The notes below the pieces were generated by a model, which saw nothing but the letters and a program-made list of their open reading frames with translations, did no database searches and was not told the origin of the DNA. This document shows positions 39,563 to 43,498 of a stretch of DNA of 61,795 nt, in pieces (the stretch's first letter is position 1; every line of letters starts with the position of its first letter). The position numbers and the translations under genes are program-made. Source of the DNA: Gammaproteobacteria bacterium (GTDB lineage Bacteria > Pseudomonadota > Gammaproteobacteria > Steroidobacterales > JABDKV01); the NCBI GenBank assembly GCA_013003425.1, contig JABDJB010000035.1:1-61795 (forward strand). The letters run 5' to 3'.

Positions 39563-40555
39563 ATGACCTCTGCCGCTCCTTTAAATATCACTCGCGCCGG
39601 CCAGGACGATGGCGACCTGAGTGTTGCCGTGCTGCTGCCCTGTTACAACGAGGCCGCCACGATCGGAGCGGTCATTGATGATTTCCGGGCCAGCGTTCCG
39701 CGGGCCAGGGTCTACGTGTACGACAACAACTCCAGCGATGATTCTGCGGCCATTGCACGCAGTCACGGTGCCACGGTGGTGCGGGAGCGCGAGCAGGGCA
39801 AAGGTCACGTGGTACGCAGGATGTTTGCCGACATTGACGCCGATATCTACATCCTCACCGACAGCGATGCGACTTACGATGCGGCATCGGCGCCACGCAT
39901 GGTGCAGATGCTGGTGGAGGAGGAGCTCGATATGGTCACGGCGCGCCGGGTCGCGACGTCGCAAAGCGCATTTCGTGCCGGCCACCGTTTTGGTAATCGT
40001 TTTCTTACCGCCCTCGTGTCCCGCAGCTTTGGCAAACCTGTGTCAGACATGTTGTCGGGCTATCGGGTGCTGTCGCGTCGCTTCGTCAAATCTTTCCCGG
40101 CACTCAGCGGCGGTTTTGAAATTGAGACCGAGCTTACTGTGCATGCGCTGGAACTTGGCATGCCGCAGGCAGAACTGGACACGCCGTATCACGAACGACC
40201 CAGTGGGAGCGACAGCAAGTTGAGCACCTGGCGCGACGGCACACGAATTCTCAGGCAGATACTGGTGCTGATAAAGGAAGAACGGCCGCTGTTCTTTTTC
40301 GCATCGATATTTGTAGTCCTCGTGCTGCTGTCGGTTGGCCTGGCAAGGCCGGTTATCGTGGAATTTCTGGCTACCGGGCTGGTGCCACGACTTCCGACCG
40401 CCGTGCTGTCAACCGGCCTGATGCTGCTGGCGTTTCTGTCGCTGGGCTGTGGCCTGATTCTCGATACCGTGACGCGCGGCCGGCGCGAGATAAAACGCCT
40501 GCACTACCTGCGGCAGCGTGGTCCGGGGGCCCGGCATCTTTCGCCGCCAGAATGA
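39563..40555 (+). CDS. Family 2 glycosyltransferase, probable polyprenyl-phosphate sugar transferase
   Basis: 330 residues. The N-terminal GT-A domain has VAVLLPCYNEAATIGAVI, the metal motif TDSDATYD, and SGYRVLSRRFVKSFP, typical of DPM1/GtrB-like enzymes that load a sugar on undecaprenyl or dolichyl phosphate. Two membrane helices follow (about 245-268 and 275-310). The start at 39563 is preferred over in-frame upstream codons, since it precedes the conserved fold. A TACAAT box at 39550-39555 just upstream could be a -10 with almost no leader. It overlaps the GtrA gene by ATGA. Confidence 0.9.
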   Translation: MTSAAPLNITRAGQDDGDLSVAVLLPCYNEAATIGAVIDDFRASVPRARVYVYDNNSSDDSAAIARSHGATVVREREQGKGHVVRRMFADIDADIYILTDSDATYDAASAPRMVQMLVEEELDMVTARRVATSQSAFRAGHRFGNRFLTALVSRSFGKPVSDMLSGYRVLSRRFVKSFPALSGGFEIETELTVHALELGMPQAELDTPYHERPSGSDSKLSTWRDGTRILRQILVLIKEERPLFFFASIFVVLVLLSVGLARPVIVEFLATGLVPRLPTAVLSTGLMLLAFLSLGCGLILDTVTRGRREIKRLHYLRQRGPGARHLSPPE

Positions 40556-40965
40556 CCGGGGATAAACGCGAGTCTCTTTTCCCGGCATTTGCCGTCGTTG
40601 GCATGGTCGGGTTTATCGTCGACGCTGCGGTATTCCAGTTGCTGTACTCGACGCTGGGCGGGTATGTCCTGCCGCGAATCCTGGCAACGGCGGTTGCGGT
40701 TGTGGTCACGTGGGGCCTGAACCGGCGTTTCGTTTTTCGCACTGCCGGCACAACTGGAGCTGCGAAGGAATTCGTGCGCTATGTCACCGTGCAGTCGAGT
40801 GGCATAGTCGTCAATTTTGCGGTTTATGCGCTGCTGCTGACCCTGTCAGAGGCGTTACGGCAGGTACCCGTGGCGGCCGTTGCAGTCGGGGCCCTGGTAG
40901 CGATGGTATTCAACTACCTCGGCGCACGTCACTGGGTATTCGCTAAGACAGGATGGCGCCCGTGA
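40552..40965 (+). CDS. GtrA-family membrane protein (putative lipid-linked sugar flippase)
   Basis: 137 residues with four membrane spans. FAVVGMVGFIVDAAVFQLLY, WGLNRRFVFR and FNYLGARHWVF are typical GtrA features. GtrA proteins are thought to flip bactoprenol-linked sugars to the periplasm. The position directly between a GtrB-like transferase and a GT-C-type enzyme is the classic Gtr arrangement. It overlaps both neighbours. Confidence 0.92.
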   Translation: MTGDKRESLFPAFAVVGMVGFIVDAAVFQLLYSTLGGYVLPRILATAVAVVVTWGLNRRFVFRTAGTTGAAKEFVRYVTVQSSGIVVNFAVYALLLTLSEALRQVPVAAVAVGALVAMVFNYLGARHWVFAKTGWRP

Positions 40966-42791
40966 GTGATCGTGGCGTGGTTTTTTTCATCTGGATCGGG
41001 GCCAGTCTGCTGGCCATTGTCAGCGCCCTGCAATATACCGATGCAGCTCTGTTCGGGTCGCAATTCATTCCCGTTGGCAACGACTCTTTCTATCATGCGC
41101 GCCGGATACTGGATGCCGCATTCAGTGCGCGTGGTTTTTACCAGTTCGACAACACGATTCATGTGCCTGAGGGCAGCTGGGTCACCTGGCCCTGGGCCTA
41201 CGATTACCTGCTGAGTCGGCTGGTCAGATTTGTTGCCTGGCTCAGCCCGGGTATCGCGCCGATGGCGGTGCTGGCACATGTTGCTGTGGCCTGGTTTGTT
41301 GTCAATACGGGCCTGTTCATCGCCGTGTGCCGCCAGTTGCGACTGCCGTTGCCACTGTTGGCAGTAGCAGCGCTGGCATTTGCCGGGGCGCAACTCAACC
41401 AGCAGCTGCACGGCCTTGGCACGCTGGATCATCACTTCATCGAGCAGACATTTGTTTTGCTGAGCCTGTGGCTCGGTCTGCGGTTCTTCGCGACGGGCAG
41501 CGGCGGCGCGGCCATAGCCCTCGGCAGCGTGCTCGGCCTGGCGACGGCGTTTCACAGTGCGCTGTTCATCCTGCAATTGCCGGCGCTCGCAACAGCGCTG
41601 CTGTTGTGGTGGCGTGGGTCCCTACCGGCACCCGCTGTCATGTTCAGGCTTGCTGCCGCGCTGGTTGCTACAACTTTGCTCGGATTGTTGCCTTCGGCAC
41701 CCTTTGCTGACCTGCAGTTCAGTTTTACCACGCATTCCTGGTTCCACCTGTACGTGGCCGTATGCAGTGCGGTTGTGCTCGTAGCGATAGCGCTGCGGCC
41801 GTACAGTGCCCGGGCGTTTGCAGTTGTGGCTGCCGTATCCGCAGCACTGGCTGTCCCGATCGCCTCACAGGTGCTGACCGGTGCACAATTTGTATCGGCC
41901 AGCATTGACGCGGTGCTGAACGTCATCGCGGAAACAAAAAGCCCGTTTGCCCTGCTGCTCGGCAGCTGGGGTCTGAAGGGTGTGGGCAGCCTGTACAGCC
42001 TGCTGATATTCCTGGTCCCGGTCCTGCTTTTGTATTTTGCGTGGCAAGTGTGGCGGGAGAAGAACAGCCGGCAGCTGCACCTGGCTGTAAGCGCCGTGTT
42101 TTGTCTTGCGCTGATGGCGATGCAGTACCGGATGCAGTATTTCGGGTCGTGGGCAATGATACTCGGGCCGTTGTATCTGCTTGCCGCAGTAACGCAAAAG
42201 AAACAATGGCCCGGCGCGGCCGTAGCCGGTGCTGCCGCCGTCGCATACCTGTTCGCCTATATACCGGTACTGCAGACGCAACGCCTCGCTGAATTTGTCC
42301 CGGCAAACGATGTGGATTACCAGCACATAGCACCGGTATTTCCTGTGCTTGACCAGCTGTGCAGCCAGCAGCCCGGGAATGTGCTGGCCTCCATGAATGA
42401 TGGTCATTACATTCGCTACCACACGTCGTGCCGGGTGATCGCAAATAACCTGCTGTTAACGCCGCAGCATTTCCAGAAGGTGGCAGAGGTAAAAAGGTTG
42501 CTGTCGTTGACGCCACAGCAGTTCGCCGATACCGAGCACCATGCAGACTATGTCCTGGTGCGTCTGAGTCGCTTGCCGGATGTGTTACAGGCATTGGCTG
42601 CCGGCGTTTCGTTTGAACGCATTGCCGCGGCCAGCCCGACATTGGTCGAGCACCTGATCATGGCAGACCAGCACCCGGGCCTGGAGCTGCTGGCGCAGGC
42701 AGTCACCGATGGCGCACCGTCAGTGCCGTATCTTCGTATCTATCGCGTCACGCCCGTGGGATCGCCGGCTACGGCAGGCGGCCAGCGATGA
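40962..42791 (+). CDS. STT3/PglB-like GT-C membrane glycosyltransferase (putative)
   Basis: About 609 residues with a dozen or so membrane spans and a C-terminal soluble domain (about 445-600). Residue numbers count from the alternative ATG at 40953. Features resembling STT3/PglB are GNDSFYHAR (42-50) in the first external loop, LDHHFIEQ (158-165) in the place of DxE, VIAE (324-327) like the TIxE motif, and MNDGHYIRYH (481-490) where WWDYG would be. The two tryptophans that read the N-glycosylation sequon are absent, so the acceptor may be something other than an Asn-X-Ser/Thr protein. GTG 40962 overlaps the GtrA stop as GTGA. Confidence 0.65.
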   Translation: MSDRGVVFFIWIGASLLAIVSALQYTDAALFGSQFIPVGNDSFYHARRILDAAFSARGFYQFDNTIHVPEGSWVTWPWAYDYLLSRLVRFVAWLSPGIAPMAVLAHVAVAWFVVNTGLFIAVCRQLRLPLPLLAVAALAFAGAQLNQQLHGLGTLDHHFIEQTFVLLSLWLGLRFFATGSGGAAIALGSVLGLATAFHSALFILQLPALATALLLWWRGSLPAPAVMFRLAAALVATTLLGLLPSAPFADLQFSFTTHSWFHLYVAVCSAVVLVAIALRPYSARAFAVVAAVSAALAVPIASQVLTGAQFVSASIDAVLNVIAETKSPFALLLGSWGLKGVGSLYSLLIFLVPVLLLYFAWQVWREKNSRQLHLAVSAVFCLALMAMQYRMQYFGSWAMILGPLYLLAAVTQKKQWPGAAVAGAAAVAYLFAYIPVLQTQRLAEFVPANDVDYQHIAPVFPVLDQLCSQQPGNVLASMNDGHYIRYHTSCRVIANNLLLTPQHFQKVAEVKRLLSLTPQQFADTEHHADYVLVRLSRLPDVLQALAAGVSFERIAAASPTLVEHLIMADQHPGLELLAQAVTDGAPSVPYLRIYRVTPVGSPATAGGQR

Positions 42792-43498
42792 GTGACGTGC
42801 CGGCAGCTAACGAGGTCTATCCTGGCGTCGAGAATCTCGAGGCAATGCGTCATGCCCGCCGCTACAACAACTTTCTGATCGACCTGATCTGCCATTACAC
42901 GAGCGGATCCCGGTTGATGGATTTCGGTGCCGGTGCCGGCACGTTTGCAGCTAGTCTGAAAGAACGCGGTCGCAATGTGGTTTGCATCGAACCGGCTGCA
43001 GCCTTGCGAGAGCGACTGGCAGCGGACGGGCTGGAGGCGCATCAATCCACAACCGGTCTGTCACCGGATTCGGTCGATAGCGTTTATACGCTCAATGTGC
43101 TCGAGCATATTGGTGATGATCTCGGCGCAGTCAAGGAAATGACCAGGTGCCTGCGACCTGGCGGCCGCCTGCTGATCTATGTGCCAGCGTTTCAGCTGCT
43201 GTTCGGCGCAATGGACAGGCGTGTCGGCCATCTGCGCCGCTACCGCCGGCGCGCGCTGGTGCGAATAGTGCGCCAGGCCGGACTGAAAGTTGAGACGGCC
43301 CGGTATGCGGACAGCCTGGGATTTCTTGCTGCCCTGGCTTACCGGTTTATCGGTGACGACAGCGGCGTTATCAGTCCGCGTTCGGTGCGGGTTTACGACC
43401 GCTTCCTGTTTCCTGTGAGCCGGCTGGTCGATCAGCTGACGCTGGGCAGCTTCGGCAAGAACGTGCTGGTTGTTGCCAGCAAACCGGATGTGACGTAA
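42788..43498 (+). CDS. Class I SAM-dependent methyltransferase
   Basis: 236 residues. The SAM loop is LMDFGAGAGTFAA with an acidic residue at the end of the next strand (VVCIEPA); YTLNVLEHIGDD is the usual motif after it. FGAMDRRVGHLRRYRR is shared with methyltransferases of polysaccharide clusters. The substrate is unknown; overlap (ATGA) with the STT3-like gene suggests it modifies the same lipid-linked sugar or its product. It is the last gene of the four-gene module. Confidence 0.87.
   Translation: MSDVPAANEVYPGVENLEAMRHARRYNNFLIDLICHYTSGSRLMDFGAGAGTFAASLKERGRNVVCIEPAAALRERLAADGLEAHQSTTGLSPDSVDSVYTLNVLEHIGDDLGAVKEMTRCLRPGGRLLIYVPAFQLLFGAMDRRVGHLRRYRRRALVRIVRQAGLKVETARYADSLGFLAALAYRFIGDDSGVISPRSVRVYDRFLFPVSRLVDQLTLGSFGKNVLVVASKPDVT

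Follow-up and report, generated by a model that had tools for sequence, protein, structure and literature searches.

A block of four genes from a member of the Steroidobacterales appears to encode a self-contained periplasmic glycosylation pathway. In our preferred reading, to which we give a probability of about 0.5, an STT3/AglB-related glycosyltransferase without the Trp-Trp pair of the WWDYG motif (STT3L) would attach one lipid-linked sugar, which may be methylated, to type IV pilin. The order of the genes and its conservation, the STT3/AglB fold, the catalytic residues, the loss of the Trp pair and the recurrent linkage to pilin genes were computed directly; the donor, its methylation, the acceptor and the linkage are what we infer.

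The four-gene block and the kinship of STT3L

The window, meaning the whole stretch of DNA analysed (61,795 nt), comes from contig JABDJB010000035.1 of assembly GCA_013003425.1 (Gammaproteobacteria bacterium, JABDKV01, Steroidobacterales). Four complete open reading frames occupy positions 39563-43498 on the plus strand, directly 3' of gatCAB-like genes, and their ends overlap head to tail in the order GT2, GtrA, STT3L, methyltransferase (Table 1). The identities proposed in the first-pass annotation, namely a GtrB-like GT2, a GtrA protein, a GT-C protein and a methyltransferase, were borne out by Pfam and NCBIfam matches and by structure models. Its statement that the genes overlap by 4 bases each was correct for GT2/GtrA and STT3L/methyltransferase, which share ATGA. 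For GtrA/STT3L it holds only with a GTG start at 40962, the ATG at 40953 giving an overlap of 13 bases.

Table 1. Features of the four-gene block, in window coordinates
Feature	Position	Strand	Basis
GT2, GtrB/AglJ-like polyprenyl-phosphate-monosaccharide synthase (P0001, 330 aa)	39563..40555	+	PF00535, AglJ TIGR04182, structure model
GtrA-family flippase for polyprenyl-phosphate-sugar (P0002, 137 aa)	40552..40965	+	PF04138
STT3L, AglB/STT3-related GT-C glycosyltransferase without the WW of WWDYG (P0003, 612 aa)	40953..42791	+	TIGR04154, AF2 model
STT3L GND, residues 42-44, first DXD motif, predicted metal ligand D44	41076..41084	+	AfAglB Gly-Asn-Asp47
STT3L DHH, residues 159-161, second DXD motif, predicted metal ligands D159 and H161	41427..41435	+	AfAglB Asp161-His-His163
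STT3L E327 of VIAE, TIXE equivalent	41931..41933	+	AfAglB TIAE Glu360; hhalign to PglB-type Glu
STT3L NDGHYI, residues 482-487, WWDYG position	42396..42413	+	profile alignment to 3vu0/3vgp, column counts
Class I SAM methyltransferase (P0004, 236 aa)	42788..43498	+	PF13489

The third protein had been described as STT3/PglB-like, and sequence profile, profile-profile comparison and fold agreed on this kinship. Bacterial and archaeal genomes were scanned for STT3L relatives, which gave 34 loci, and 38 sequences were aligned (19 invariant columns). P0003 matched the NCBIfam model archaeo_STT3 (TIGR04154) at 1.9e-13 and no Pfam family. The same model was matched by 38 of 38 members, the best at 7.5e-24, and more weakly than this by four genuine bacterial PglB-like proteins (1.8e-8 to 5.8e-6). 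The Pfam STT3 family PF02516 was matched at E 0.1 by 0 of the 38 members, none of which reached its gathering score, and by no protein of the source genome. An HMM-HMM comparison with PglB-type proteins, suggested in the first pass as a check, related the STT3L profile to a bacterial PglB-like profile (hhalign probability 96, E 4.6e-9), with D44, D159, E327 and R393 in register with the PglB-type residues as read from the hhalign printout; an unrelated large membrane family used as a control gave a probability of 0.3. Against PDB sequences, neither phmmer with P0003 nor a 7-row profile returned a match. The 38-row profile found two chains only, the AglB C-terminal domains 3vu0 and 3vgp, at E-values (0.22 and 0.34) that are marginal on their own.

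The AF2 model of STT3L was of high confidence (pLDDT 93.6, pTM 0.93), and its best fold match was AglB 7e9s (Z 31.8, 574 residues, rmsd 3.5). Human and yeast STT3 scored Z about 25-29 (STT3A/B about 29), PglB and DPY19 both 22-23 (best 23 and 22.7, respectively), Pmt4 20.1 over 345 residues, and ArnT 17-18 (17.8). Structure prediction had been named beforehand as the result that could overturn the assignment, and ArnT and PMT fell clearly below AglB/STT3 in it; an ArnT/PMT-like identity was dropped for this reason. Judged from its sequence and predicted structure, STT3L is a relative of STT3/AglB.

All of the motifs noted in the first pass were present in P0003, namely GND(44)SFYHAR, LDHH (159-161), VIAE (327) and NDGHYI (482-487). 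They are not chance resemblances, because D44, Y47, H48, R51, D159, H160, H161, E164, E327, R393 and G398 are invariant in the 38 homologues. G484 is also invariant, the motif region being intact in 37 of the 38 (the second copy of locus L027 is cut off there). In Archaeoglobus fulgidus AglB, the metal ligands are Asp47 of Gly-Asn-Asp and Asp161 and His163 of Asp-His-His, and Glu360 of Thr-Ile-Ala-Glu acts through water (PMC8342417). GND, DHH and IAE are identical to the letter in STT3L and this enzyme.

Profile alignment to 3vu0/3vgp placed WWDYG opposite x-x-(N/D)-x-G of the STT3L family. In none of the 37 members whose motif region is complete was either WW position a tryptophan, and only the Gly was kept throughout; the missing WW reported for the single protein is therefore true across the family. 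In PglB, Trp-Trp-Asp forms the pocket for the Ser/Thr of the sequon (PMC3703281). STT3L is accordingly read, from these alignments, as an enzyme that has kept the AglB metal site and lost the sequon pocket. K509, a candidate for the DK/MI motif by sequence alignment, occurs in 34 of 38 members opposite a Lys of 3vu0/3vgp. The CC unit of AglB and PglB comprises 152-181 residues and is the sole C-terminal unit in AglB-S1/S2 (PMC3703281), and the C-terminal domain in the STT3L model is about this size. Cys470 (42360-42362) and Cys493 (42429-42431) lie on either side of the segment equivalent to WWDYG; 37 of 38 members retain them, and they could possibly form a periplasmic disulphide.

Donor-side genes and conservation of the block

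P0001 matched Glycos_transf_2 (PF00535, 5e-17), and its closest NCBIfam model was AglJ (TIGR04182, 8.7e-59), with a score below that model's cut-off; all 18 GT2 orthologues matched the AglJ model. Its structure model (pLDDT 84.9), which has two long C-terminal helices, matched structures of ArnC, dolichyl-phosphate mannose synthase and GtrB. P0002 matched GtrA (PF04138, 3.4e-22) and was the only GtrA found in the source genome assembly. P0004 matched Methyltransf_23 (PF13489, 9.8e-17). A single-sugar donor is suggested because the block holds GtrB-like and GtrA proteins and no chain-extending glycosyltransferase. In Haloferax, AglJ charges dolichol phosphate and AglB transfers from that lipid (PMC3871713), which makes the pairing of AglJ-like and AglB-like proteins in the block suggestive.

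The 34 STT3L loci were nearly all gammaproteobacterial, belonging to Woeseiaceae, Steroidobacteraceae and relatives. The block was conserved: of the 33 loci that were complete, 11 (counting the one in the window) had GT2, GtrA, methyltransferase and STT3L together, and 3 further ones had GT2, methyltransferase and STT3L. A methyltransferase orthologue was present in 13 STT3L loci besides the window. The usual order was GT2-GtrA-methyltransferase-STT3L; the window differs in that STT3L precedes the methyltransferase. No donor gene lay nearby above threshold in 12 of the 33 loci, 9 of which also had no pilin. Across 59 related genomes, a GT2 orthologue was found in 6/6 STT3L-positive vs 2/53 STT3L-negative genomes (Fisher p 6e-7, kinship among genomes ignored). 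One of the genomes with both (G283) had STT3L on a different contig from the GT2-GtrA pair. The two related genomes with GT2 and no detected STT3L (G324 and G279) indicate that GT2 alone is not STT3L-specific; in G324 it adjoins another membrane protein and in G279 it lies with a GtrA-methyltransferase fusion.

Several other arrangements were seen in the survey. GT2 orthologues at L073:4603-8308 and L075:1250-4184 stand beside large membrane proteins other than STT3L, as if a single donor synthase worked with GT-C enzymes of different kinds. Several genomes have two STT3L copies; at L021:2595-4493 and L022:2827-4725 the second one has diverged, points away from the GT2-GtrA-STT3L set and carries QFGHH or QFGHQ at the motif position. 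A family of 637-aa membrane proteins that carries a YDEYSHWG motif and matches nothing in Pfam or NCBIfam is repeatedly found next to STT3L (L016:7797-11711, with two copies; L018:7849-9759; L019:7780-9705; L033:4088-6004). In another class of the phylum, the protein at L059:1120-2988 matched the archaeal STT3 model weakly (2.9e-4), carries FDTDD, LDHDD and FDIGA without WW, and is possibly another sequon-less STT3 branch. The MAG names attached to family members at L036, L045, L033 and L017 (Klebsiella, Pirellulaceae, Nitrosomonas) look doubtful.

Linkage to type IV pilus genes and the likely acceptor

All other genes around STT3L were clustered into families, whose representatives were assigned with Pfam. 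Type IV pilin (7 loci) and PilB, PilS and PilR (5 each) were the four families present at the most loci. PilC came next with 4 loci, level with the secA and lpxC neighbours common to related Woeseiaceae loci. A six-frame motif scan detected a major pilin within 6 kb of STT3L in 9 of 34 loci; 0.17 were expected, given a density of about 0.37 pilin loci per Mb across seven genomes that carry STT3L. The nearest gap between STT3L and pilin was 218-622 bp in six loci. Steroidobacteraceae loci are not independent, because they are related and share synteny. On the maximum-likelihood tree, however, the pilin label changed 5 times, so the linkage is not one inherited arrangement. In five loci (L030, L035, L039, L041 and L047) donor genes were also inside the pil locus. 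L041, with GT2-GtrA-STT3L between pilBC and the pilins, falls in the clade of the window's STT3L (support 88/75).

The module of the source genome has gatCAB as its neighbour. The pilins of this genome are encoded on a different contig, where a sucCD-pilSR-pilA-pilBCD locus contains no glycosyltransferase. Any action on pilin in this organism would therefore be in trans. The module adjoins secA in four Woeseiaceae-like loci (L016, L018, L019 and L020). Since only a few kb separate secA and the pil locus of the source genome (L093), pil genes may lie close to the module there as well.

Because type IV pilus genes recur beside STT3L, pilin is the likely acceptor, a proposal that comes from gene neighbourhood and goes beyond the first-pass annotation. 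In the proposed pathway, GT2 would load one sugar onto polyprenyl phosphate at the cytoplasmic face, as its kinship with AglJ, GtrB, ArnC and DPMS suggests. The methyltransferase might then methylate this sugar, which is the least certain step, and GtrA, by its family, would flip the lipid-linked sugar. Finally, STT3L would choose its site without a Ser/Thr pocket and move this one sugar onto an acceptor in the periplasm, most probably type IV pilin; the modified site would not be defined by Asn-X-Ser/Thr.

The main rival, which we consider unlikely but a serious contender, is that STT3L modifies LPS or another surface glycan by passing the sugar to an undecaprenyl- or lipid A-linked glycan, as GtrABC and ArnT do. 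GtrB-GtrA-GT-C is the classic three-component layout of glycan modification (PMC11127046, PMC8035078), most STT3L loci are away from pilin genes, and four Wzy_C-type proteins suggest that the source genome may make O-antigen-like glycans. The fold score of STT3L is nevertheless far closer to the protein-glycosylating AglB/STT3 than to ArnT, and, whereas pilus genes recur, no O-antigen gene family was found among the recurrent neighbours.

Asn-X-Ser/Thr sites in STT3L-linked pilins numbered 23 vs 20.4 expected; there was no excess, and so no positive signature of sequon N-glycosylation. That the family is a bacterial AglB branch which N-glycosylates type IV pilins, adding one (methylated) sugar and doing so with no sequon pocket, an archaeal-type route in gammaproteobacteria, is in our view doubtful. 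We judge it improbable that STT3L N-glycosylates many periplasmic proteins, of which pilin would be just one, at an Asn site that is relaxed or different. The AglB residues for the metal and the acceptor amide are kept, the C-terminal domain resembles the minimal CC unit of AglB-S1/S2 in size, and orphan STT3L copies occur in loci without pilins, but the loss of WW and the lack of sequon enrichment in the linked pilins speak against such a role.

It is very unlikely that the methyltransferase has another target and that the module adds an unmodified hexose. The gene is absent from six loci with GT2 and STT3L (L020, L021, L022, L027, L041 and L043), and P0004 matches generic SAM methyltransferases only; on the other side, GtrA and methyltransferase are fused into one protein at L072:5027-6160 and L039:3870-4994, and GT2 and methyltransferase in L046. 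These fusions (two and one, respectively) tie methylation to the lipid-linked sugar steps, and P0004 probably acts on the lipid-linked sugar. A phage seroconversion cassette is not indicated, since no STT3L relatives were found among viral contigs or plasmids.

Relation to known glycosylation systems

The closest known counterpart is archaeal AglB (GT66), especially the short AglB-S, with which STT3L has in common the GT-C fold, the GND/DHH/IAE metal site, a short CC-type domain and the pairing with an AglJ-like lipid-sugar synthase. Unlike AglB, STT3L is without the WW of WWDYG, its block has no chain-building glycosyltransferases and its host is bacterial. AglB also modifies archaeal pilins and archaellins, and AglB-dependent pilin N-glycosylation is described as apparently restricted to archaea (PMC4371748). 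The catalytic residues of PglB align with those of STT3L by hhalign. PglB, however, keeps WWD and takes a pyrophosphate-linked oligosaccharide, whereas STT3L matches neither PF02516 nor the PglB model, and PglB scores below AglB in the fold comparison.

With a polyprenyl-phosphate-sugar synthase, a GtrA flippase and a GT-C transferase in one operon, the block has the GtrABC-type architecture, which the GtrABC O-antigen and GT136 pentofuranose systems also show. The acceptor in those systems is a polysaccharide; their GT-C enzymes are set beside STT3L here by description, not sequence. The DPY19 C-mannosyltransferase has an STT3-like fold and a single-sugar lipid-phosphate donor, as proposed for STT3L. 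DPY19 is metal-independent and has no metal ligands (PMC10154233), whereas STT3L keeps its metal site. The first-pass annotation had suggested a monosaccharide-donor relative of oligosaccharyltransferases; the kinship stands, but the general idea already has a eukaryotic precedent, because DPY19 is a single-sugar enzyme of this fold.

TfpO and TfpW of Pseudomonas aeruginosa are pilin glycosyltransferases encoded at the pilin locus, TfpW adding D-arabinofuranose (PMC11841053). The STT3L gene is at a pilin locus in 9 of 34 loci, the window not among them; the TfpO/TfpW transferases and donors, going by their descriptions, are different ones. By analogy, and as part of the best explanation, the STT3L module may be the AglB-type counterpart of TfpO/TfpW. 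Among the open-access papers searched, a set short of most subscription papers, we found no report of a bacterial STT3-GtrA-GtrB system or of a pilin-linked STT3.

If the preferred reading is true, the module would represent a further kind of pilin glycosyltransferase in bacteria, one constructed around the catalytic centre of archaeal AglB; pilin sugars affect phage binding in other bacteria (PMC11841053). STT3L would also be a natural relative of oligosaccharyltransferases that retains the metal site but has lost the sequon pocket. Such an enzyme would let one ask what the pocket contributes and which acceptor atom is used without it. It also raises the evolutionary question of whether oligosaccharyltransferases arose from single-sugar enzymes or the reverse.
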